Source: Xylanibacter rarus
Lineage (GTDB): Bacteria; Bacteroidota; Bacteroidia; Bacteroidales; Bacteroidaceae
Direction of reading: 5' to 3'
Assembly: GCF_001275135.1 (NCBI RefSeq)
Contig: NZ_LFQU01000008.1
Location: 1-64,000, forward strand
Length of the DNA: 64,000 nt
The position numbers and the translations under genes were made by a program. Positions within the stretch are counted from its first letter, which is position 1, and each line of letters opens with the position of its first letter. Under the pieces are notes generated by a model. The model ran no database searches and was not told the origin of the DNA. It was given only the letters and a program-made list of their open reading frames with translations. This document shows positions 15,575 through 29,000 of this stretch, one piece after another.

Positions 15575-16273
15575 ATGTCAAATAATTATTTCAGATTCAA
15601 ACAGTTTACAGTAGAGCATACCAGGTGTGCCATGAAGGTGGGTACAGATGGGGTGCTGCTTGGAGCATGGGCACGTGGTGGCGATACTATCTTGGATATT
15701 GGTACGGGCTCTGGGTTAATTGCCTTGTTCATGGCTCAACGATATCCATCGGGGAAGATTGTTGCCATTGACGTTGATGCCGGTGCTGTCCTACAAGCGC
15801 GTATCAATGTATATAATTCTGCATTCAGCGACAGGATAACCATAATAGAAAAACCTTTACAAGAGTTCTGTGCAGGGCAGTTCGGTTCTATAGTATGCAA
15901 TCCGCCGTTTTTCGTCAATTCGCTGAAAAACAGAGACGGGCAAAAGGCCATGGCACGTCATGCCGACACACTTACCCATGCTGAACTTGTGAGCGGTGCA
16001 TCACGGTTATTGGCCGACGATGGCGAGTTCTCTGTTGTCATACCAGCCGCACTGCGCACGGCCATTGATGCTGAAGCAGCCATGGCAGGTCTTTTCCCTT
16101 CAAGGATCTGTGCCATTAGAACCATACCACGTAAGCCCGTCAGCCGTTATCTTTTGGCATATCGTAAGCATCCTGCAGACAGGATTGAACAAACAGAAGA
16201 ATGTATTAATAATGATGATATGTCGCGGTCAGAATGGTACAGCAGCTTGACGGAGAATTTCTATATCAGATGA
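15575..16273 (+). CDS. trmN6: tRNA1(Val) (adenine37-N6)-methyltransferase
   Basis: A 232-residue SAM-dependent Rossmann-fold enzyme that methylates the N6 of A37 in tRNA1-Val (YfiC/TrmN6). The start FRFKQFTVEHTRCAMKVGTDG is diagnostic. The SAM-binding loop is LDIGTGSGLIALFMAQ and the catalytic motif is NPPFFVNSLKNRD, followed by ARHADTLTHAEL. Its stop overlaps the convergent LytTR regulator by 13 bp. The gap from the GH127 stop (15465-15574) shows no clear terminator. Confidence 0.92.
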   Translation: MSNNYFRFKQFTVEHTRCAMKVGTDGVLLGAWARGGDTILDIGTGSGLIALFMAQRYPSGKIVAIDVDAGAVLQARINVYNSAFSDRITIIEKPLQEFCAGQFGSIVCNPPFFVNSLKNRDGQKAMARHADTLTHAELVSGASRLLADDGEFSVVIPAALRTAIDAEAAMAGLFPSRICAIRTIPRKPVSRYLLAYRKHPADRIEQTEECINNDDMSRSEWYSSLTENFYIR

Positions 16274-16968
16274 GAATGGTGCAGGATGCGCTCCGATAAT
16301 TCATTTGCGTATTGCTGCCCTATAGGTAAGGGGGAATCTGTACCGTTTATGAATACGTTGTGTCTTGTAAAACTATTAATTTTATTCAACGGGACTATGT
16401 ATGAACGGTGAATCCTCACAAATGCTTCTTGTGGAAGCATCTGCATTAATGTTTTCATGTTTGTACGTGTAAGTACGTTTCCTCCTGTGACTTTGACAAT
16501 TTTTACATAATTGCCTAAAGCTTCTATATAGAGGATGTCGTTTAGTAGAATGTTTACGTTTGAGTATTCTTGTTTTACTGTGATGTGGCGTTGTGGATTT
16601 ACTGAGGTTGGGTTCATTCGGCGCATAGCTTTATCTACAGCACGGCAGAAACGTTCATAGGCGAAAGGTTTGTGCAGATAGTCTACAGCATCGAGATTAA
16701 ACCCTTCTAGAGCATACTGAGCATGTGCTGTTGTGAATATGATGCACGTTTCGTGAGGTATGCTGCGGGCTATGTCCAGGCCGTTTATACTGCTCATATG
16801 TATGTCAAGAAACACAAGCTGTGGCTTGGTTCTTATAATTTCGTCTATGCCGTTTTGAGGTTCGCTGTATGTCGTTAGTTCTATGCCGCCGCGACGTTGG
16901 CAGAACTGTTCGATAACGAGCAATGCCATGGGCTCGTCGTCAATGGCAATGCAACTTATATTTTTCAT
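16261..16968 (-). CDS. LytTR-family response regulator (first RND locus)
   Basis: A 235-residue regulator with a receiver domain (1-120) and a LytTR DNA-binding domain (about 135-232). The acidic pocket DDE is at residues 10-12, the phospho-acceptor is Asp55 in VFLDIHM, and Lys is in LHKPFAYERF. The LytTR part shows ILYIEALGNYVKI and FVRIHRSYIVPLNKI. It is translationally coupled to the upstream LytS-type kinase at 16968. The divergent RND pump genes and the 21-bp-period repeats at 18122-18158 make that pump its likely target; this is inferred from position. Confidence 0.92.
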   Translation of the reverse strand: MKNISCIAIDDEPMALLVIEQFCQRRGGIELTTYSEPQNGIDEIIRTKPQLVFLDIHMSSINGLDIARSIPHETCIIFTTAHAQYALEGFNLDAVDYLHKPFAYERFCRAVDKAMRRMNPTSVNPQRHITVKQEYSNVNILLNDILYIEALGNYVKIVKVTGGNVLTRTNMKTLMQMLPQEAFVRIHRSYIVPLNKINSFTRHNVFINGTDSPLPIGQQYANELSERILHHSHLI

Positions 16969-17970
16969 TACAGTTGTATTTTTAGTTTTGCTATATATAC
17001 GTTTCCTATTGGGCCATTTTCAAGCTCGTATCGCCCTGGGTATAATAGTTCAAGTCGTTTTCTGCAGTTGGCTATCCCAATGCCTTCGTGCTCTGAATCT
17101 ACATGTCTTATAATAGTGTTGACAGTATCGAAACTTAGCAGACCGTTCTTTAGGCATATGTTTATTTGGATGTTGCAGTCTGTGTCTGCTGATGTGCCAT
17201 ACTTAAACGCGTTTTCTACAAAAGTGATAAATATCATAGATGGTACAGGAGTTGTTTCGTTGTCGGTTTGGGCTGTTAGGGTCACCCTTGTATGATGGTT
17301 TAATCTGAGTTCCTGCAAATCAGTGTATTGCCTGATATATTCTATTTCCTGTCCTATGGGAATGTTTTCGGAATGTGTTTGTGCATACATGTATCTCAGA
17401 ATATTTGAAAATTTCACGAAGGCAGATTCTGTTTTATCAGACCCAGAAAGTACAAGTGCATAAAGCATATTGAGAGTGTTGAACATGAAGTGTGGATTTA
17501 TTTGTGCTTTATAGAGTGCCAGTTCTGCTTTGTTTTTCTCTGCGGCAATTTCCTGTTTTGCCAGTATTTGTCTAAATAGTTCGAATGTCAGTTCGATTGC
17601 AAGCGAAAATCCTGTTACCATGAGAAAAAAGAACCATATTGTTTGTGTGCGCATATTCATTCTGGCTTCCATTTGCCGTGGTGAGCCTGTATGGTCTGAT
17701 GGTACAGGAAAATAAGTGAACAGCCATGTTGTTGCAGTTAAAGTGATCAGTAAGCCGGCTATGTGTATGTAGTTTTTTCTGCATGAAGAGTTTTGGTAGG
17801 CATACCCATCGGTATATGAAGTAAATAATGTATATATAGGCTATCAGTGTGAGCAGGAAGGCCGTGTTGTGCACAATCCAACGGTCAACAGGAAGCAGCA
17901 TTATGGTCAATGGCATTATAATTAAGCAGAATAAAAGGTCTATATACAATGCAATGTGATTATTCTTCAT
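16968..17970 (-). pseudogene. LytS/YpdA-type sensor histidine kinase, frameshifted
   Basis: The N-terminal part (from 17970) encodes two hydrophobic segments (LYIDLLFCLIIMPLTIMLL and FLLTLIAYIYIIYFIYRW). The frame then leaves its path after LFMQK. The second part carries a further membrane span, the coiled linker, the His-kinase motif QINPHFMFNTLN and the ATPase region FVENAFKYG and GIGIANCRKRL. Deleting one base from T6 at 17773-17778 joins them through NYIHIAGLLITLTATTWLF into a 333-residue protein with four membrane spans, normal for the family. It is coupled to the LytTR regulator. Either a base-call error or a genuine inactivating mutation. Confidence 0.88.
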
Positions 17971-18075
17971 ATGAGATTTGTTTTCAGATGTTAATGTATT
18001 CAGTCCGCATGGTTTATATATTTTATTATTGTTGGCTGCGGATGGTTCACATATTTATTTTGTTTTACGATCATT

Positions 18076-18084
18076 GCAAAGGTA
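18076..18084 (-). promoter_or_regulatory. -7 box of the first LytS-LytTR operon
   Basis: Minus-strand TACCTTTGC fits TAnnTTTGC, about 105 nt before the kinase start at 17970. No good -33 element is present. The direct repeats at 18122-18158 lie directly upstream, where an activator would bind. Confidence 0.5.
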
Positions 18085-18121
18085 ATACATTTTATTGAAC
18101 GGTCTATTGTTTGCCATGTGT

Positions 18122-18158
18122 TGTTTGTCACCACATATAGGCTGTTTGTCACCACATA
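18122..18158. promoter_or_regulatory. Candidate LytTR operator: two 16-bp direct repeats with 21-bp period
   Basis: TGTTTGTCACCACATA occurs exactly twice, at 18122-18137 and 18143-18158, so the period is 21 bp, two helical turns. Direct repeats with this period are the known binding architecture of LytTR regulators such as E. coli YpdB and BtsR. The repeats lie in the gap between a LytS/LytTR pair (minus) and an RND pump operon (plus). The repeat sequence itself is not a known LytTR consensus, so the assignment is by geometry and context. Confidence 0.6.
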
Positions 18159-18343
18159 GTTTATCATAAGACTCATTGTTCATAAATTTGCATCAACTGA
18201 ATGGCCGGCAATGCAGTTTTGTAAGGAAAAAAGCAACTATATTTCTTGCTTATATGCACCCGGACATAGAGGGCTGTTATTTGTTGTATGTCTTGAGCGG
18301 CCCTTATTTAGTAACTTTAGTTTTTATTTTATAGAAATACAAA

Positions 18344-19465
18344 ATGGAAATTAAAACAAGTATTATGCTCGTTGTGTGTAGTATGTCATTGTTCTGTGCT
18401 TGTGATGATAAAAAACAGGCTACTCATGGCGAGGAGTATAAGACGCTTACTGTTACGCGTCGAGACTTTATGCTGCAATCTGCTTATACTGCAACACTTC
18501 AAGGGCGTCAGGCTGTTGAGGTGCGTCCGCAGGTCAGTGGCACGATTACAGACATACGTATAAATGAGGGAGATGCCGTTAAGCGTGGTCAGGTGCTGTT
18601 TGTCATTGATCAGGTGCCATATAAGGCTGCGCTCAGTACGGCAAAGGCTAATTTGGAGAGTGCGGAGGCAAAGTTGTGTACGGCCAAACTAACGGCAGAT
18701 AGTAAAGAGGAACTTTGCAGGAGAAATGTTGTATCAGATTATGACAGGCAGACAGCCGTTAACTCTTTACGAGAGGCCAAGGCTGCTGTAGCTCAAGCCC
18801 GGGCTGAACTTACACGTGCTACTAATGACTTGTCTTATACAGAAGTGAAGAGTCCTGTTGATGGTGTTGCAAGTATGATACCTTATCGTGTCGGTGCATT
18901 GGTTGGCAGTACTATTGAAGAACCGCTTGTAACCGTGTCTGATGATTCTGAGATTTATGCTTATTTCTCTATGGCTGAGACACAGATGCTTGATCTTATA
19001 GAGGAGTATGGCTCACTTGATGAGGCTAAGAAAAAACTTCCTCCGGTCGGGTTGACGATGAGTAATGGCAACAAATACGATCTACAGGGACGTATTGATG
19101 CTATTGGCGGTACCGTTGATTCGGAGACTGGATCTATAGGATTTAGAGCTGTTTTCAGCAATCCCCGACATCTGTTGCGCAATGGTGGCAGTGCTTCTGT
19201 ATTAGTTCCGTCCGTGCATAAGAATTGTATTGTGATACCTCAGTCGGCTACATATGAGCTTCAGAACAGAGTGTTTGTGTGGAAGATTGTTGACGGCAAG
19301 ACAAAGTCTGCCCCTATAACAATTTATAAATATAACGATGGGAAAAACTATATTGTGCTATCCGGACTGGAACCGGGTGATGTCATTATTGCGGAGGGCG
19401 CAGGACTGATGCGTGAGGGTACGGTGGTTAGCACGGGAAAGAAGTCTGATTCCACAAAAAAATAA
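18344..19465 (+). CDS. RND efflux periplasmic adaptor (membrane fusion) lipoprotein
   Basis: A 373-residue AcrA/MexA-like adaptor linking an RND pump to an outer-membrane channel. A lipoprotein signal ends at LFCAC (Cys20). The lipoyl halves are RQAVEVRPQVSGTITDIRINEGDAVKRGQVLFVID and YTEVKSPVDGVASMIPYRVGALV, flanking an alpha-helical hairpin (about 90-140). Beta-barrel and membrane-proximal domains follow (NGGSASVLVPS, VLSGLEPGDVIIAEG). The pump gene follows within 10 bp. There is no outer-membrane factor in this operon; the TolC homolog at 24733-26028 belongs to the neighbouring pump operon. Confidence 0.93.
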   Translation: MEIKTSIMLVVCSMSLFCACDDKKQATHGEEYKTLTVTRRDFMLQSAYTATLQGRQAVEVRPQVSGTITDIRINEGDAVKRGQVLFVIDQVPYKAALSTAKANLESAEAKLCTAKLTADSKEELCRRNVVSDYDRQTAVNSLREAKAAVAQARAELTRATNDLSYTEVKSPVDGVASMIPYRVGALVGSTIEEPLVTVSDDSEIYAYFSMAETQMLDLIEEYGSLDEAKKKLPPVGLTMSNGNKYDLQGRIDAIGGTVDSETGSIGFRAVFSNPRHLLRNGGSASVLVPSVHKNCIVIPQSATYELQNRVFVWKIVDGKTKSAPITIYKYNDGKNYIVLSGLEPGDVIIAEGAGLMREGTVVSTGKKSDSTKK

Positions 19466-19474
19466 GGATTGCCA

Positions 19475-22400
19475 ATGAAAATAAAAACTTTCATCGACCG
19501 GCCTATACTGGCCGGAGTAATATCCGTGCTGATATTCATTCTCGGAATTATAGGCTTGTTGCAGCTTTCTATCGAACAATTTCCTGAGATTGCACCACCT
19601 ACGGTCAGCGTTTCGGCTACATATAGTGGGGCTAATGCTGAAACCGTGCAGAAGAGCGTGGTGGTGCCGCTGGAGGAAGCACTCAACGGTGTTGAAAATA
19701 TGACCTATATGACTTCAACGTCATCTAATAATGGCTCTGCCAAAATCAGTGTATATTTCCGCCAGGGAACAGATCCTGACATGGCCACAGTCAACGTGCA
19801 GAACCGTATTGCCACAGCACAAGGACTGCTGCCGGCAGAGGTGACAAAGAGTGGTATTACCGTGCGAAAACGTCAGACAAGTAACATCAAGCAGTTGGCT
19901 GTTTATAGTCCTGATGATTCGTTTGATGAGGCTTTCCTTACCAACTATATGAAGATTAATATCGAACCGCGTCTTTCGCGTATTGCCGGTGTTGGTGAAG
20001 TTAATGTATTCGGATACGAATATTCCATGCGTATATGGTTAAATCCCAGTAAAATGAGACAGTATGGACTTGTACCGGCTGATATATCCGAAGTGCTTGA
20101 CGAACAGAATGTGGAGGCCGCCACAGGCACTTTGGGTGCTGAGGCAAGTAACACTTTCCAGTATGTGCTGAAGTACCGAGGACGTTATGAGAATGAGGTT
20201 GATTATGAAAATCTTGTGATAAAGTCGCTTCCTGGTGGGGAAGTGCTGCGACTAAAAGATGTTGCCGCTATAGAACTGGGAACTAGAGCTTATGATTACA
20301 TTAACGAAGTTAACGGTCATCCAGGTTGTAACATCATGATTGCTCAGACCTCAGGGTCAAATGCCAATGAGATAATAGAAGAGATCGACCGTACCGTGGA
20401 CGAAATATCCAAAACGTTGCCAAAGGGTATAAAGATAGTGGATTTGATGAGTACGAAGGATTTTCTTGATGCTTCAATTAAGAACGTCATAAAAACGCTT
20501 GTCGAGGCAATAGTACTTGTGGTGCTTGTTGTCTATGTATTCCTTCAGAGTCTGCGTTCAACATTCATCCCCGCACTTTCAATCATAGTGTCGCTGGTCG
20601 GTACGTTTGCCTTTCTCTATGTGGCAGGCTTCAGCCTGAATATGCTTACTTTATTTGCGTTGGTGCTTGTAATCGGAACTGTAGTAGACGACGCCATCGT
20701 GGTTGTAGAGGCCGTTCAGGCCAAATTCGACGAGGGCTACCGTTCTTCATATCTTGCCACGGTCGATGCCATGGACGGTATCACGTCGGCGCTCGTCACT
20801 ACAACATTTGTTTTCATGGCTGTGTTTATTCCTGTGAGTTTCATTGGAGGTACCACGGGTACATTCTACACTCAGTTTGGACTTACTATGGCTGCTGCTG
20901 TTGCCATATCGCTGGTCAATGCGTTGACGTTGAGTCCGGCTTTGTGCTCACTTATAATGACTCCACATGCCGATGCTTCTAACGGAAGCAAGTTAAGTTT
21001 TTCGTCGCGTTTCCATATAGCTTTCGACACAGCATTTGGCCGTCTTGTCATGAAGTATAAAAGAGGAGTAGCCTTTATGCTCCGGCGTAAATGGTTTGCC
21101 GGATTATTGCTGGTTATTGCCTGTGTTGGCTTTGCCATACTCATGGCAACCACAAAAACCGGCTTTGTGCCCAATGAGGATATGGGCACGGTGTTTGTTG
21201 ATGTGCGTACATCGCCGGGCAATAGCGTAAGCCAAACCCGTAAGGTGATGGAGCAGGTGGATAGTTGCCTGCGCACTATACCGCAGATTGAGTTGCAGTC
21301 GAATACTACGGGCAACTCTACTTTGAGCGGTCAGGGTGCCTGCAACGGAATGTTCACGATACGTCTTAAAGATTGGAGTCTGCGTACTCACAAGGAGGAT
21401 GCTCTGGATGCTGTGATAAGCGAGATACAGCGCATTACGGCTCCTATATCGGGTGCTGACATCATTGCCTTTACGCGTCCAATGATTCCTGGATACGGCA
21501 CAAGTAGCGGATTTGAGGTATATGTGCAGGACCAGAAGGGAGGCACCACAGATGAGTTGTTAAAATATACGCGCCTGTTTATTGACTCTTTGAGCCGCCG
21601 TCCCGAGATAGGCCGTGCGACAACTTCATTTGACACCAAGTTTCCACAGTATCTCGTAGAGGTCGATGCTGCGCGATGCAAACGTAACGGAGTGTCACCA
21701 GCCGATGTGCTCAGCACGCTTTCCGGATACGTTGGCGGCAGCTATGCTTCAAATATGAACCGCTTCTCAAAACTTTACCGCATAATGGTGCAGGCACCGC
21801 CTGAGTTCAGGCTCGACACACGCTCACTAGATAATATGTTTGTGCGAAACTCAGACGGCCAAATGTCGCCTATAAGCCAATATTTAAAGCTCAAAAGAGT
21901 TTATGGCTCAGAAGTGCTCACACGCTTCAATTTGTTTTCTGCCATACAGGTAAACGGCTCGGCAGCTCAGGGATACAGCTCTGGCCAGGCCATAGAGGCT
22001 ATAAAGGAGGTGGCAGACAAGACTTTGCCTACGGGCTATGGTTATGAGTTTGGAGGTATGTCGCGCGAGGAGTCTGACGCAGGCAATACGGCCACATTGG
22101 TGTTTGTTGTGTGTGTTGTGTTTATATATCTTATTCTCTGCGCTCTATATGAAAGTCTTTTCATTCCTTTGGCTGTCATTTTGTCCGTGCCGTTTGGCCT
22201 TGCCGGCAGTTTCATGTTTGCTAGGATTTTCGGTCTGGAAAATAACATATACTTGCAGACCGGTCTTATAATGCTCATCGGTTTGCTTTCAAAAACGGCT
22301 ATCCTGCTTACCGAGTATGCCTCGGAGCGGCGTCGTGCCGGCATGTCGATAGCTCAGGCTGCAATTTCGGCTGCTGGCGTACGCCTCAGACCTATACTTA

Positions 22401-22600
22401 TGACATCGCTCACAATGATTTTCGGTATGTTACCCATGATGTTTGCTACGGGTGTTGGTGCTAATGGCAATATATCCATAGGCGTAGGTACGGTGGGTGG
22501 AATGCTCGTGGGCACGGTGGCCCTGCTTTTTGTTGTTCCTCCGCTGTTTATGTTGTTTCAGTATATGCAGGAAAGGTTTATGCCGCAGCGACGCCAATAA
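19475..22600 (+). CDS. RND multidrug efflux pump inner-membrane subunit (AcrB/HAE1 type)
   Basis: A 1041-residue proton-driven exporter with 12 predicted membrane spans and two large periplasmic loops. The ATG at 19475 (MKIKTFIDRPILAGV) is chosen over the TTG at 19469. Motifs include FPEIAPPTVSVSATYSGA in the porter domain and the TM4 proton-relay pair in GTVVDDAIVVVEAV. The second half shows NNIYLQTGLIMLIGLLSKTAILLTEYA and RLRPILMTSLTMIFGMLPM, typical of the HAE1 subfamily that pumps hydrophobic drugs and bile-type compounds. It forms an operon with the adaptor. Confidence 0.95.
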   Translation: MKIKTFIDRPILAGVISVLIFILGIIGLLQLSIEQFPEIAPPTVSVSATYSGANAETVQKSVVVPLEEALNGVENMTYMTSTSSNNGSAKISVYFRQGTDPDMATVNVQNRIATAQGLLPAEVTKSGITVRKRQTSNIKQLAVYSPDDSFDEAFLTNYMKINIEPRLSRIAGVGEVNVFGYEYSMRIWLNPSKMRQYGLVPADISEVLDEQNVEAATGTLGAEASNTFQYVLKYRGRYENEVDYENLVIKSLPGGEVLRLKDVAAIELGTRAYDYINEVNGHPGCNIMIAQTSGSNANEIIEEIDRTVDEISKTLPKGIKIVDLMSTKDFLDASIKNVIKTLVEAIVLVVLVVYVFLQSLRSTFIPALSIIVSLVGTFAFLYVAGFSLNMLTLFALVLVIGTVVDDAIVVVEAVQAKFDEGYRSSYLATVDAMDGITSALVTTTFVFMAVFIPVSFIGGTTGTFYTQFGLTMAAAVAISLVNALTLSPALCSLIMTPHADASNGSKLSFSSRFHIAFDTAFGRLVMKYKRGVAFMLRRKWFAGLLLVIACVGFAILMATTKTGFVPNEDMGTVFVDVRTSPGNSVSQTRKVMEQVDSCLRTIPQIELQSNTTGNSTLSGQGACNGMFTIRLKDWSLRTHKEDALDAVISEIQRITAPISGADIIAFTRPMIPGYGTSSGFEVYVQDQKGGTTDELLKYTRLFIDSLSRRPEIGRATTSFDTKFPQYLVEVDAARCKRNGVSPADVLSTLSGYVGGSYASNMNRFSKLYRIMVQAPPEFRLDTRSLDNMFVRNSDGQMSPISQYLKLKRVYGSEVLTRFNLFSAIQVNGSAAQGYSSGQAIEAIKEVADKTLPTGYGYEFGGMSREESDAGNTATLVFVVCVVFIYLILCALYESLFIPLAVILSVPFGLAGSFMFARIFGLENNIYLQTGLIMLIGLLSKTAILLTEYASERRRAGMSIAQAAISAAGVRLRPILMTSLTMIFGMLPMMFATGVGANGNISIGVGTVGGMLVGTVALLFVVPPLFMLFQYMQERFMPQRRQ

Positions 22601-22800: not shown

Positions 22801-23574
22801 CTATGAATTGAGCCACACTTTAAGTGCAGAGGCTTTTTCACGGCTTATAATGATTGGCTCCTTGCAGTTGGGTGATGTTTTCATTACCCAGCGTCCGCCA
22901 AAGTAGGGCTCTATGCTTCTCACAGATTTTGCCGAGACGATAAACTGGCGGTTTGCTCTGAAGAAGTTTTTCGGGTCGAGTTGCTGCTCCAGGCTACTCA
23001 ATGGCGGGTCTACAATATGCTCGGTTCCGGCCCATGTGGTGGCTATGGTTATTTTGTCTTCCGAGCGGAAGTATGCAACGTCGTCTATTTGCAATGTGTA
23101 AAGTTTCCGGCCTGCCGACACAAGCAGACGCTCGCGGTATGTATTAGCAGCGTCTTCGTGCATCGCTCTTGCAAGATATTTGCTGAGGCTGCCAAGAAGT
23201 CCGGCGTTGTGGTAGCGTTCAAATTTAGCTATTGCAGTCTCAAGACGCTCAACGCGTATAGGCTTTAGCAAGTAGTCAATACTGTTAAGGTCGAATGCCC
23301 TCAGTGCATACTCGTCGTAGGCTGTGGTGAATACAATCATACATTCGGTCGGCAGCTTGTCTACGAGTCCGAATGATGTGCCGTCAGAGAGTTGTATGTC
23401 GAGAAACATTATATCGGGACGGACGCCCGAATGGTCGAGCCACTGGGAGGCTTCGCTTATGCTGCCAGGCACAATATGTGTGTGCCATTCAGGTCTTATA
23501 CTGTTCACCATACTAAAGAGCAGGCGGGCTGCCGGCAACTCGTCGTCTATTATTGCAGCAGTAATGTCAGTCAT
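22801..23574 (-). CDS. LytTR-family response regulator (second RND locus)
   Basis: A 257-residue regulator with a receiver domain (DDE at 10-12, Asp59 in IMFLDIQLSDG, Lys in LLKPIRVERL) and a C-terminal LytTR domain (RERLLVSAGRKLYTLQIDDVAYF, NFFRANRQFIVSAKSVRSI). It overlaps its kinase gene by 8 bp and is the last gene of the set adaptor-pump-TolC-kinase-regulator. It is a divergent paralog of the regulator at 16261-16968, so the two loci are unlikely to be a recent duplication. Confidence 0.92.
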   Translation of the reverse strand: MTDITAAIIDDELPAARLLFSMVNSIRPEWHTHIVPGSISEASQWLDHSGVRPDIMFLDIQLSDGTSFGLVDKLPTECMIVFTTAYDEYALRAFDLNSIDYLLKPIRVERLETAIAKFERYHNAGLLGSLSKYLARAMHEDAANTYRERLLVSAGRKLYTLQIDDVAYFRSEDKITIATTWAGTEHIVDPPLSSLEQQLDPKNFFRANRQFIVSAKSVRSIEPYFGGRWVMKTSPNCKEPIIISREKASALKVWLNS

Positions 23575-24628
23575 ATATCATGGGGATTTTTACGGTAAAA
23601 GTATTGTTGTCGGCAATGATGCGTATGTCACGTCCACATAGCAGTCTGCAACGCTTTGACAAATTCTGAAGTCCGTGTCCTGAGGTGCCAATTACAGGCT
23701 TGGGTGTCAGCGTGTTGCTTACGGCCAGCCAGGGTGAGTCGTCGTTTTCTTCACACCATAGTTTTATGGTTGCGGGATTTGCCGTGTTAACGATGTTGTG
23801 CTTTATAACATTTTCTGTTAGCAACTGTAGTGTCAGTGGCGGCAGTTGCATGTAGCCCTCGATATTGTTGAGCTTTGTTTCAAGTTGTATGCAGTCGCCT
23901 AGCCGCACTCTTTGTAGCTGTAAGTAGGTTTGGGCAAACCTAATTTCTTCGTTGAGGCTTACACTTTGTTTCTCGTGGCAATCGAGAATGTAGCGGTATA
24001 TGTCGGCCAAGTTGCGCGTAAATTCGGCTGCACCAGCTGGGTTATATTCTATTTCAGCCACGAGTGTATTCAGACTGTTGAATAGAAAATGGGGGTTTAG
24101 CTGACTTTGCAGAGCTGCATATTGTGCTTTGGCTGAGGCATCTTCCAGTTGTCGTGCCCTGCGGCGATGTTCTGCTATGTCGGCATAAAACCTGTTAATG
24201 AGTAACAGACTTACGGCCAGCAACTCTATTAGCCATACGCCCAGCAGTGCTCCGGCCCCTCGCCATGCCAAGGCCATCGGCCTTGGGGAGTGACCTATGA
24301 CTTTGGTGGCCACAAGCAGCAGATAATTAGAGCAGAGTAGGGCTGCGGCTGCTATAGCAAGGAATGTGAACATGCGGCTGCGCTTTTTTATCCATGCGGG
24401 ATAGGACGCACTCATGCGCCGGTTGACAAAGCGCAGGCTCAGACCAACACCGTTGAACAGCAGTAGTACGGCAATGATGCTTTCCGGTGTGGTCAGGTGC
24501 TGGCTACTTATGGCCGGCATGTCACCGCAAATTATGAGCAGCAGGTATGAGCAGCAGCCTATTGCAGAATAGACAAGTATGTCGGTGAGCACCGATCCAT
24601 GCTGCAGGTTATTGTCATTAGTTGTCAT
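23567..24628 (-). CDS. LytS/YpdA-type sensor histidine kinase (second RND locus)
   Basis: A 353-residue membrane kinase with four hydrophobic segments in the first 165 residues, a helical linker (YADIAEHRRRARQLEDASAKAQYAALQ), the phospho-acceptor motif QSQLNPHFLFNSLN and a compact ATPase domain (LTENVIKHNIV, GTSGHGLQNLSKRCRLL). The intact reading frame here shows what the frameshifted paralog at 16968-17970 should look like. A -7 promoter box lies just upstream at 24713-24721, so the kinase-regulator pair may also be expressed apart from the pump genes. Confidence 0.93.
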   Translation of the reverse strand: MTTNDNNLQHGSVLTDILVYSAIGCCSYLLLIICGDMPAISSQHLTTPESIIAVLLLFNGVGLSLRFVNRRMSASYPAWIKKRSRMFTFLAIAAAALLCSNYLLLVATKVIGHSPRPMALAWRGAGALLGVWLIELLAVSLLLINRFYADIAEHRRRARQLEDASAKAQYAALQSQLNPHFLFNSLNTLVAEIEYNPAGAAEFTRNLADIYRYILDCHEKQSVSLNEEIRFAQTYLQLQRVRLGDCIQLETKLNNIEGYMQLPPLTLQLLTENVIKHNIVNTANPATIKLWCEENDDSPWLAVSNTLTPKPVIGTSGHGLQNLSKRCRLLCGRDIRIIADNNTFTVKIPMIYD

Positions 24629-24712
24629 ATTTTTATATTACATGTGTGCGTCCGGCAATATGGAGTAGCATGCCGTTTGGATGCCTGTTTGGTGAAATAC
24701 TGCGCTGCGAAT

Positions 24713-24721
24713 GCAAAAATA
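24713..24721 (-). promoter_or_regulatory. Internal -7 box before the second LytS-LytTR pair
   Basis: Minus-strand TATTTTTGC fits TAnnTTTGC, 84 nt upstream of the kinase ATG and just beyond the TolC stop codon. No -33 element is seen at the usual distance. Confidence 0.5.
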
Positions 24722-24732
24722 ATAAATTATTT

Positions 24733-26028
24733 TCAATATCCGTACACATATTCGAGTGAGCTTTTGGCCATGCAGGCATCAAGTTTTGAGGCTATGTGAT
24801 TCCGACATGCATCGAGGTAGTATATCTGAGCGTTGATGACGTCTGTAACAGACACACTTCCTTCATAATATTTTTCTGTGGTCAGTCTGCGGCTTTCTTC
24901 TGCTTTGAGAAGTGAGCTTGCTGTCAGTTTTACCTGTTCGCATGCCTTTGTGTAGTTACATCTAGCCGTTTCGGCTTCAAGCTGCAGCCTGTCGGCAGTG
25001 CTTCTCATCTGTTCTTCGGCTACGGCTGTGGCATGTTTTCCCATACGTCGGGTGTTGCCCCTCTTTCCCCATTCGAATATAGGAATACTTAGTGTGGCAT
25101 ATACAGAATAGTTGGGGTCTGGAGCTGCCCTGAAGTCGTATCCAGGTGATGTGTAGCTTCCGTTGATGCCTACAGACAAGTTCGGCTTGTAGGCTGCATC
25201 GGCCATGCGTGCCTCATAGCCTTTTATGTCTATTTGTTTGCTCGCCATGGCCATCTCAGGACGATTGTATATACTTTGCCCCGTTGAAGGTATTGTTGTA
25301 TCGGGACATAGCATGGTATCTGCCGGTATCATATCAGATGAACCGACACCAGCCAGCGAGTTTAGGGCAAGCCGAGCATTTTCGGCATCAGTTAGCGCAC
25401 GCTGCAGTTGATATTCGGCATCGTTGAGACGCACTTCGGCTGTCAGAAGATCGTTGCGGCCGGTATATCCGTTGCTTACACGTAATGCTACAGCCTCTGC
25501 AAGTGCGGCTGCGGCATCACGATGTCTCTGTGCCACTGTTACCATTTCGCGTGTTGCTACATAGTTCCAGTATGTCTGATCGGCTTGATATATAAGATTG
25601 TTGGTTATGCGTTTTTTCTCGAATGCAGCATTCTCACTTTCTGTTTTGGCCTTTCCGTAGGAAGCCTTGAGCAGTCCGCCCGTGTAGATTGGTTGAGCCA
25701 TTGTCAGCGATGCACCGTATTTTGTGTTTCTGCCGTTGAACGTGTAGCTGCGGCCGCCGTCTGTACTCGGCAGTGCTATGTTCAGTTCGAGTGGATTACC
25801 TGTATATTTAGCGTCGGCGTTGCCCGTAATCTTTGGTTTAAAGTCTGCTTTTGCCGCTGCTGCATTTTCTTTATATACTTCTAATGCGTGTGTGGCGGCT
25901 TTTACGTCGTGGCTATAGGCTTCCACCTGACGGCGGTATGCCTGTAGCATAGCCGCATCTTTAGCTTCAGCGTTTGTGCTTATGGCAGTCAACGCCGCAT
26001 ATATTGTTATTATATGTTTTATTTTCAT
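24733..26028 (-). CDS. TolC-family outer-membrane efflux channel protein
   Basis: A 431-residue outer-membrane factor that completes an RND tripartite pump. A signal peptide (MKIKHIITIYAALTAISTNAEA) is followed by two OEP repeats of long coiled helices alternating with beta strands. Typical segments are GASLTMAQPIYTGGLLKASYGKAKTESENA and VYATLSIPIFEWGKRGNTRR. It lies 17 bp after the pump gene on the same strand. Being the only TolC homolog here, it may serve both RND systems; this is inference. Confidence 0.92.
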   Translation of the reverse strand: MKIKHIITIYAALTAISTNAEAKDAAMLQAYRRQVEAYSHDVKAATHALEVYKENAAAAKADFKPKITGNADAKYTGNPLELNIALPSTDGGRSYTFNGRNTKYGASLTMAQPIYTGGLLKASYGKAKTESENAAFEKKRITNNLIYQADQTYWNYVATREMVTVAQRHRDAAAALAEAVALRVSNGYTGRNDLLTAEVRLNDAEYQLQRALTDAENARLALNSLAGVGSSDMIPADTMLCPDTTIPSTGQSIYNRPEMAMASKQIDIKGYEARMADAAYKPNLSVGINGSYTSPGYDFRAAPDPNYSVYATLSIPIFEWGKRGNTRRMGKHATAVAEEQMRSTADRLQLEAETARCNYTKACEQVKLTASSLLKAEESRRLTTEKYYEGSVSVTDVINAQIYYLDACRNHIASKLDACMAKSSLEYVYGY

Positions 26029-26045
26029 ACTTTGTCTGTTGCTTG

Positions 26046-29000
26046 TTATGCATGTTTACATGTTTCTGTCGTATCTTCGGCTTGCTTTGCTGCTTCTGGA
26101 TAGAATATGGCATATAGGGCAGGAGTGGCAAAGAGAGTGAGCAGCGTGGCAAATGAAAGACCGAACACGATTGTTGCTGCCATGCCTCCGAACACAATGT
26201 CGAACAGCAGTGGTATGCTGCCGAATACTGTTGTTGCGGCAGCCATGAGCACCGGACGTGTACGCGATACTGTTGCCTCTACTATAGCCGTAGATGGTGG
26301 TACGCCTGCGCGTCTCTGCAGATTGACTTCATCGAGTAATACGATGATGTTTTTTATTATCATACCCAGCAATCCGAGCCATCCGGCAATGCAGAAGAAA
26401 CCGAATTGAAAACCCGTGACGAGCATGCCGACAACTACGCCTATGATTGAGAGTGGAAGAATGAGAAATATTATTAGCGGTTGCTTGAAGTTGCCGAATA
26501 GCATTACGAGGATTACCACCAGGAATATTATGGCCAGTGGAAAATACTTGGTCAGTGCGGCCATGGCCTCTTGCTGGTCCTTATACTGAGAGTCCCAGAA
26601 GAAGGTGTAACCTGGTGGTAGTTTTATCTGTTCTATCTCGTTGCGTATTTCGGCATGTACTTCCTTCATAGTGTGTCCGTGTTTAACGTCACACTGGGCT
26701 GCCATTGACAGCCGCCTGTTGTATGTTTTCATTAGCGGCCATTCCCATCCCGTGCTTATGCTGTCTGCAAGCTGTGCCAACGGAGCTGAGTTTGTGCCGT
26801 TCCATACAGCCAGGTCGCCCAACGCGTCTTGTGATATCATGCCCTTGGTGTTTGTGTGTAACATCACAGGCACCTGCTTGTCCGCATCTCTGTATATGCC
26901 TACTGCAACTCCGTCGGCAGTGCTTTTCACGGCGGTCATCATGTCGGCTTTTCCTAGTCCAAGCCTTCCTGCTTTTACAGGATTGTACGGAGTGGTCATC
27001 GTCATGGCCTTGTTGCCCCATTCATTGCGTGCATTCATAACCTTGGGATTGCGTCTCATTATTTCTATTGCCACATTGGTCAGCGAATCGAGTACGCGTG
27101 GATCATCGCCGCTGAAGCGTGCCTCTATGAGGGCCTGTGGTACAGAGTTCAGCTCAAAGCTATTTACGCGTACTAATGCATCAGGGAAAGCTTGTGATAT
27201 TTCGTTCTGCAGTTTCTGTTGCATGTTTCTGGCAGCCTCAGGGCTGACGGCTTCAACCAGGCACTGGGCATAGTTGCTTTGAGGACCGTAAGCTGCGTTG
27301 GCCAGATAGTAGCGTGGAGGCGTCTGCCCCGTAAATGTTGAAACGTGCTTTATGTCTTTGCGTCGTCTCAGCGTGTCAGCCAATGCTTGTGTCTGTTCTG
27401 CAGTCTGCTCTATGCGCGTTCCTTCTGGCAACCACAGGTCTATTGTGAAGTACTGCTTGTTAAGCAATGGCATAAATTGCTGCGGGATGAGCTTGAAAGC
27501 AACTGCGCTTAGAATGAGCAATGTGACAAGGCATGCAGTAACGGCATATCTGTGGCTTATCGTCAAGCGTAGGGCTTTTCTGAACATATCGTAAAGTCTG
27601 CCTCTGAACAGTTCCCCCTTGAGCTCATCAGGACGTGGACGGCGCACAAACTCTTGTACGAAAAACACGTTTTGCGTTATGGCTAGAATCCAACTAAGCA
27701 GCAACGATACTGCTATCACGATGAATAGAGACGATAGAATTTCACCCGTTATGTGTGGAGAGAGGTATACGGGCAAAAATGTCAGCACAGCTATTAATGT
27801 TGCACCTAATAGTGGCATGGCTGTGGTGCCCACGGCTGACAGTATGGCCGGGCGTTTGCGCATGCCGCGCTGCATGTTTACCAATGCCGCGTCATATACC
27901 ACGATAGCGTTGTCTACGAGCATACCCATGGCTATTATTATGGCTGCAAGTGACATTCGTTGCAGGGCAATACCTGTTGCGCACATGTATATCAATGTGC
28001 CGAAGATAGAGAAAACTAGTCCGCTGCCTATTAGTATGCCGTTCTTTATTCCTATGAATAGAAGTAGTACGCCAGCTACGGTTATTACAGATATTATAAG
28101 GTTTAGCACAAAACCCTCGTTGGCCTCGGCTGACTCATGTCCTTGGTCGTATATTGTCTGCAGGCTGTATCCTTCGGGCAGTGTTTGTCTGGCTTCGTCT
28201 ATGTATGCTGCAACACGTTCCGACATATCAACCACATTGCCGTCGGCCACAGTAGATATGGCCATACCTACGGCCGGCTGTCCGTCGGTCCGCATTTGGT
28301 TGCGTGCGGGATGGCGGTAACCTTCGCTTATATGAGCTACCTCGCCAAGCCTGATGTAGGCTCCGTCCCGTCCCACAATCGTTAGTTGTTCTAGTTCTTC
28401 AAGACTACCAAAACTGCCGGTAGCCTCTACTCTTATGCGATTGTGTTCGGTTTCTATAGCACCGGCATCTACAATTCTATTTTGTCTGTCGAATGCTGCT
28501 GTTATGTCAGACATGGTTATTCCGCTGGCTGCCAATAGCGAAGGATCGGCTTCTATGTCTATGGTGCGGTCCTGCAGTCCGAACAGCTCTACGCGGGCTA
28601 CATCTTTTATGCCCAACAGACCATTTTTTAAACTGTCTGCCTTGTCTTCAAGCTCCCGCCAGCTGTGGTTAGATGAACTTAGAGCGTAGAACACTCCGAG
28701 TACATCGCCGAAGTCATCGTTTACTACTGGGCGACCGGCTCCTGTTGGCAGATGTGGTTGGGCGTCGTTCACCTTACGTCGCAGTTTGTCCCACAACTGC
28801 TGCATGTCAGCAGCGCGTATTTCTTTTTTCACGTAAACGGTAATCTTCGACAGCCCTGCCCTGTTTTCGCTTTTCAGATAATAGAGCTCGCCAAGTTCCT
28901 GTATTGATTCTTCGAGCACGTCTGTCACTTGCTCTCTAACCTCAGCCGGTGAGGCTCCCGGATACGATGTTGTCACCACAGCCTGTTTAATTGTGAATGG

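Follow-up and report, generated by a model that had tools for sequence, protein, structure and literature searches.

Gene content of the locus and the repeat pair

The window, i.e. the whole 64 kb stretch of DNA that was analysed, carries the genes of a LytS-type histidine kinase and a LytTR response regulator on the minus strand, back to back with an operon encoding an RND membrane-fusion protein (MFP) and its transporter on the plus strand (Table 1). Both domain matches of the regulator, PF00072 and PF04397, exceed the curated cut-off and place it among the LytTR response regulators, while the adjoining MFP and ACR_tran transporter genes identify the divergent unit as an RND efflux operon. 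A search among solved structures returned mainly matches to the receiver domain, together with one to the LytTR region (3d6w), among the best 60 of 65. In the LytTR alignment the window's row lacks the end of the domain, and no conclusion was drawn from it. In LytTR regulatory systems (LRS) the LytTR regulator is paired with a membrane protein, not with a kinase and a receiver; the regulator studied here has a receiver domain and a histidine kinase is present, hence the system is not an LRS.

The kinase frame is interrupted near 17773-17780 in the window's assembly, as seen in a two-frame match to the open frame of a relative; each of the 23 relatives examined has LytS as a single open frame of 281-397 codons. 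The frame change is either a mutation or an assembly error. A second LytS-LytTR pair (22801-24628) follows the gene of an outer-membrane efflux channel, on the minus strand and within 22801-26028. The plus-strand MFP-RND genes have no channel gene beside them on their own strand. The copies nearest to the locus at 16261-22600 are labelled Phocaeicola or Bacteroides (up to 88% identity for the RND transporter and 73% for the MFP), and the best MFP among the other genomes searched in the window's genus, at 61% identity, falls below them. Such a distribution suggests that the locus was perhaps horizontally acquired or patchily kept.

Table 1. Genes, repeats and predicted promoter elements at the divergent junction
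Feature	Position	Strand	Evidence or detail
LytTR response regulator, likely DNA-binding protein	16261..16968	-	PF00072 4.7e-17 (receiver), PF04397 5.3e-18 (LytTR)
LytS-type histidine kinase	16968..17970	-	PF06580 on 16968-17672
Predicted -7 box TACCTTTG, LytS-LytTR promoter	18077..18084	-	CAAANNTA at offset -47..-42
Putative operator half-site 1	18122..18137	+	conserved core 18123-18135, GTTTGTCACCACA; recognisable in 33/33 loci
Putative operator half-site 2	18143..18158	+	conserved core 18144-18156; recognisable in 31/33 loci, weak in L129
Place of the -33 element, pump promoter	18160..18163	+	TTTA, 3/4 to TTTG, assuming a 19 bp spacer
Predicted -7 box TAAATTTG, MFP-RND promoter	18183-18190	+	60 bp downstream of where the half-site core begins
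RND membrane-fusion protein (HlyD_D23), first gene of the operon	18344..19465	+	domain match
RND transporter (ACR_tran)	19469..22600	+	domain match

Between LytS, which starts near 17970, and the MFP gene, TGTTTGTCACCACATA is present as two exact 16-bp direct copies with a start-to-start distance of 21 bp, which bears out what an earlier note on this DNA had claimed. Among exact 16-mers it is the only one that recurs at 16-60 bp within the window, and none of 100 dinucleotide-preserving shuffles of the 64 kb holds any such pair. The core pair TTTGTCACCAC-N9..13-TTTGTCACCAC occurs once in the window's own genome (3.79 Mb, 85 contigs) and its backwards control does not occur. A single half-site with up to three mismatches gives 54 matches in the same genome versus 31 for the backwards control, and is uninformative alone.

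Conservation of the pair and of the flanking promoters

The comparison covered 33 loci, namely the window's, 23 obtained via homology search and nine from 393 genomes drawn evenly across the order, all with a LytS-LytTR pair divergent from an adjacent MFP-RND operon. The homology search of the regulator returned 80 loci, whose closest members are labelled Phocaeicola, Bacteroides, Alistipes, Parabacteroides and uncultured Bacteroidales, among others. Neighbouring genes were inspected in 30 of these (L111-L140), and in 23 the MFP gene, mostly with the RND gene, stands back to back with LytS-LytTR. Seven were set aside, two being cut near the contig start (L113, L126) and five having no MFP match in the stretch (L134, L136-L139), and the remaining 50 loci, at most 42% identical, were scanned by motif only. 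One contig set aside (L139) is labelled Roseburia sp. and has a Bacteroidales-like LytS-LytTR pair; it is possibly mis-binned. In the even draw, 15 of the 393 genomes have a close regulator, and nine new loci with the divergent layout were counted. The six others are the window's own genome, two whose sites are the same as those of L115 and L125 (G499 and G492, respectively), two without an MFP match in the stretch (G676, G448), and G397, whose locus is split over two contigs and whose pair lies in L229 with a -7 box at offset 60 (offsets being counted from the first base of the pair). The 33 loci form 29 clusters at 60% identity, and none of the nine from the draw is a near copy of the 23.

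A search for the repeat at orthologous intergenic regions had been set beforehand as a check, and the element was present at the same junction in the 23 + 9 further loci. In the best match to the window's pair at the LytS/MFP junction, both half-sites are at least 9/13 identical in 20 of the 23 loci, and the second is 8/13 identical in L129, L130 and L131. Since this search was aimed at the motif, a motif-free self-similarity was also computed: at period 21 it reaches at least 10/12 in 19 of 24 loci (the window's included) versus 0.5% of shuffles at that period, and at any other period from 10 to 44 in at most one of the 24. A weight matrix built from these first 24 loci placed the site above all 200 shuffles in each of the nine draw loci. 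With leave-cluster-out matrices, all 33 stretches beat all 200 of their own shuffles and had their best place at the expected one. Of the 33 loci, 31 show two recognisable half-sites at a distance of 21 bp; the exceptions are L130 and L131, two loci close to one another, where half-site 1 alone can be recognised. Mean pairwise identity across the 33 loci is 0.81 for half-site 1 and 0.74 for half-site 2, against 0.46 for the 8-bp spacer and 0.28-0.34 for the flanks. The letters of the half-sites vary between loci (GTTTGTCAACACA, GTTAATCAACACA, GTTTATCAATAAA), while the 21-bp period and the place are constant.

The promoters of sigma-ABfr are described as TAnnTTTG at -7 and TTTG near -33 (PMC7366714). 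On the pump side, TANNTTT is found at offset 59/60 in 27 of the 33 loci, versus 1.2% of shuffled flanks, and the full TANNTTTG in 25. On the kinase side, 28/33 loci have CAAANNTA, the minus-strand form of TANNTTTG, at -47 to -42 (0.4% when shuffled). The repeats had been placed upstream of the kinase -7 box and of the pump operon in the earlier note, and the boxes found on both sides agree with this. Transcription is predicted to start slightly past 18190 (+) and past 18077 (-). The pump-side box is missing at 59/60 in six loci (L120, L124, L125, L130-L132) and the kinase-side box at -47..-42 in five (L114, L125, L130-L132). In L130, L131 and L132 the nearest kinase-side -7-like box stands at -12, versus about -45 elsewhere, and the pump-side place reads CATTTTTG.

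The -33 elements are poor. With spacers of 18-22 bp, exact TTTG is found in none of 27 loci on the pump side, where 13 of the 27 have three of the four letters, and in four of 33 on the kinase side. When the repeat is taken as 9 nt with its end at offset 26 and the promoter spacer as 19 bp, both lengths being chosen and no exact -33 being seen, the gap comes to 10 bp; with these lengths, the order of the site is 9-12-9, 10 bp, the -33 place, 19 bp and TAAATTTG. At the level of sequence, then, the pair, its conservation, its period and its spacing to both -7 boxes are established.

Association of the pair with LytSR genes

Genomes of the window's genus allow the regulator and the pump to be separated, since an MFP homologue with E no higher than 1e-95 is present in 66 of 299 (the window's own counted). 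Besides the window's, 29 of these MFP loci were read, being the best ones fetched, with about 1.5 kb of flank, a reach that misses more distant LytSR genes (e.g. L267). Two of the 29 have LytS or LytT in the stretch, and both have the pair with a box at 71. Among the other 27, no locus combines a score of at least 22 with an in-register box; L277 and L294 attain 22 with no box, and L290 scores 21 with a box at 61. In a relaxed scan, pairs came up at the LytSR-linked L100 and L101 too, their boxes standing at 70 and 71 and, for L100, at 59 as well; the same scan yielded other, out-of-register matches in L095, L100 and L101 and an overlapping one in L137. No half-site pair was recognisable at L091/L267, a LytSR-MFP pair of the same genus separated by a 2 kb gap. 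The element is present in four of the five LytSR-linked MFP loci read in the genus besides the window's, and, as far as sequence comparison goes, the pair is tied to LytSR rather than to the pump alone.

When the 393 genomes of the order were searched starting from the motif, up to one mismatch being allowed, 17 pairs were found versus at least eight control matches, so that inexact pairs alone are not specific. Five of the 17 are exact, and four of these, the window's included, lie at a LytS/MFP junction. The remaining exact pair (L224) and the 12 one-mismatch pairs were treated as background, as they neither adjoin a LytS or MFP gene nor have an in-register box. At period 21 and with up to three mismatches, 12 genomes held 24 matches versus seven in the control. 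Ten of the 24 are at the LytSR-pump locus (nine exact, one with two mismatches); the other 14, L221 among them, have two or three mismatches and no -7 box at 59/60. Two genomes chosen via loci without a pump match (G324, G325) have no pair at such a locus. A period-20 pattern, which served as an unplanned negative control, was absent from the window's own genome and gave nine matches, with two or three mismatches, in four of 11 genomes. Judging from these counts, the exact operator looks dedicated to the LytSR-pump locus.

Paralogous LytSR systems have a 21-bp pair of related half-sites as well (G000:C10 = L079, L117, L118, L136 and L137), and one of them, G000:C10, lies in the same genome as the window, with a regulator 44% identical. 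Like the window's locus, they combine LytS-LytTR with the half-site pair and a -7 box in register. Unlike it, their half-site letters are of the GTTTACC type, the -7 box is at 70-72, about one turn further, and the divergent gene in L079, L118, L136 and L137 encodes a predicted protein of 863-970 codons and not a pump. Loci L118 (8708-10440) and L117 (10168-11555) each hold, downstream of the first LytS-LytTR pair and on the other strand, a further paralogous pair with an operator variant of its own; L118 is from the commensal Phocaeicola plebeius DSM 17135.

The relaxed scan of 22 regions found the pair with a box at 70-72 in nine (L079, L095, L096, L097, L100, L101, L117, L118, L137), pairs without a box in L093 and L098, and no pair in 11 (L080, L091, L092, L094, L099, L126, L134, L136, L138, L139 and the window's own 24500-27000), although that of L136 was seen in the motif scan. 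The generalisation to paralogues is partial, because 11 of the 22 regions have no pair and L093 and L098 have no box. We tentatively suggest, while considering it somewhat less probable than its contrary, that one operator grammar is common to LytSR systems of Bacteroidales. In it, two -33-poor sigma-ABfr promoters would both be driven by the one 21-bp double site between them, and paralogues would keep the helical phase, shift the -7 box by a whole turn (from 59/60 to 70-72, including the pump-linked LytSR of the genus itself) and change the half-site letters. If such a shared grammar were true, the targets of many unstudied LytSR systems would be readable from sequence.

Proposed regulation and comparison with known LytTR sites

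The reading we favour, with a probability of roughly 0.87, is that the repeats are the operator of the LytTR regulator encoded at 16261-16968, which would activate the pump promoter and probably also act on its own operon. An operator for this regulator had been proposed in the earlier note, and the proposal gains support from all 33 loci, with half-sites conserved over their flanks. Two regulator molecules would occupy the two half-sites, which a distance of two helical turns (21 bp) puts on the same face of the DNA, immediately before the MFP-RND promoter. Once phosphorylated by the LytS kinase, the regulator would assist the sigma-ABfr RNA polymerase at this promoter, whose -7 box is good and whose -33 is poor, turning the pump on. 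The double site probably also acts on the kinase-regulator operon, because its calculated distance to the -33 place on the kinase side is about the same; a site between two promoters may serve both directions. What we infer in this model comprises DNA binding, phosphorylation, autoregulation, the signal and the choice of activation over repression.

The same LytTR site could instead act as a repressor or switch, the pump promoter being silent until the signal. An operator between divergent promoters can do either, and the site lies about midway between the two boxes, but it ends before the -33 place and overlaps neither -7 box. The poor -33 elements on both sides (exact TTTG in 0/27 and 4/33 loci) also speak against repression, as does the activation described for HdrR and YpdB (PMC6193735, PMC4847170), an argument tempered by the derepression of bsaA mentioned upon loss of AgrA binding (PMC4227749). 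We consider repression unlikely.

It is less probable still that the operator belongs to the second LytS-LytTR pair (22801-24628), linking channel and pump. A LytTR regulator is indeed close by, and no channel gene within the window belongs to the MFP-RND operon, but among the matches listed in the 30 closest loci the first pair was found, and the second pair and the channel gene were absent; moreover, the relaxed scan found no half-site pair similar to the repeats at 24500-27000 of the window.

A duplication by chance or slippage, or an RNA-level element (attenuator or leader hairpin) with no regulator, can be practically dismissed: slippage could yield identical copies, and the window's are more alike than those of most relatives, but the spacer drifts while the half-sites stay conserved, the 9/9 draw loci and 33/33 leave-cluster-out stretches above shuffles contradict it, and the repeats lie upstream of both -7 boxes and would therefore not be transcribed from them. 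The RNA element was rejected, with no Rfam match in 17900-18500 and a plus-strand fold no better than shuffles (z 1.21).

With activation by the neighbouring regulator as the favoured reading, an uncharacterised regulator gains a precise, conserved and nearly single-copy candidate DNA target, and an RND pump found in several Bacteroidales groups is linked to one particular sensor system. Judging from the paralogues, other LytSR operators in these bacteria could be found in the same way. This type of switch is already known and the present example seems to be new; among the titles and abstract starts listed from the open-licence literature none describes the present operator, and most subscription journals are outside that coverage, so its unpublished status is unproven.

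One consensus given for LytTR operators is [TA][AC][CA]GTTN[AG][TG]; GTTTGT in the repeat fits its GTTN[AG][TG] part, and the three preceding bases do not fit. According to PMC4847170, LytTR regulators bind two repeats of 9-11 nt with spacers of 11-13 nt and have no common consensus. The 21-bp period has this geometry as 9 + 12, which 9 nt count as the repeat being chosen. In most LRS operons 12 bp separate the repeats, which stand 10 bp ahead of the -35 element (PMC6193735). The window's pair resembles the sites of Escherichia coli YpdB (at yhjX), Streptococcus mutans HdrR and other LRS operons in having direct repeats about two turns apart just upstream of a promoter, and the 11-13 nt published for spacers of the YpdB/LRS type includes its 12 nt. 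It differs from the YpdB and HdrR sites, as far as these are described in the same sources, in the letters of the half-sites, in lying between divergent sigma-ABfr-type promoters and in having a pump operon as neighbour.

Within Bacteroidia, the LRS-like repeats of B. thetaiotaomicron and B. ovatus (PMC6193735, Table 3) are likewise direct repeats upstream of a promoter, standing 11 bp upstream of TGTA/TGTG-19 bp-TATCTTTG. Unlike the window's, they are 11-bp repeats with an 11-bp spacer (period 22), have other letters and go with transmembrane regulators, and the accessible text of that article names no pump operon for them. AgrA at agr P2/P3 offers a further parallel, binding as a LytTR dimer to paired direct repeats ahead of promoters that share an intergenic region (PMC4227749), as the regulator would at the window's pair. 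According to the same account, AgrA has separate sites for P2 and P3, whereas the single pair of the window seems to serve both sides.
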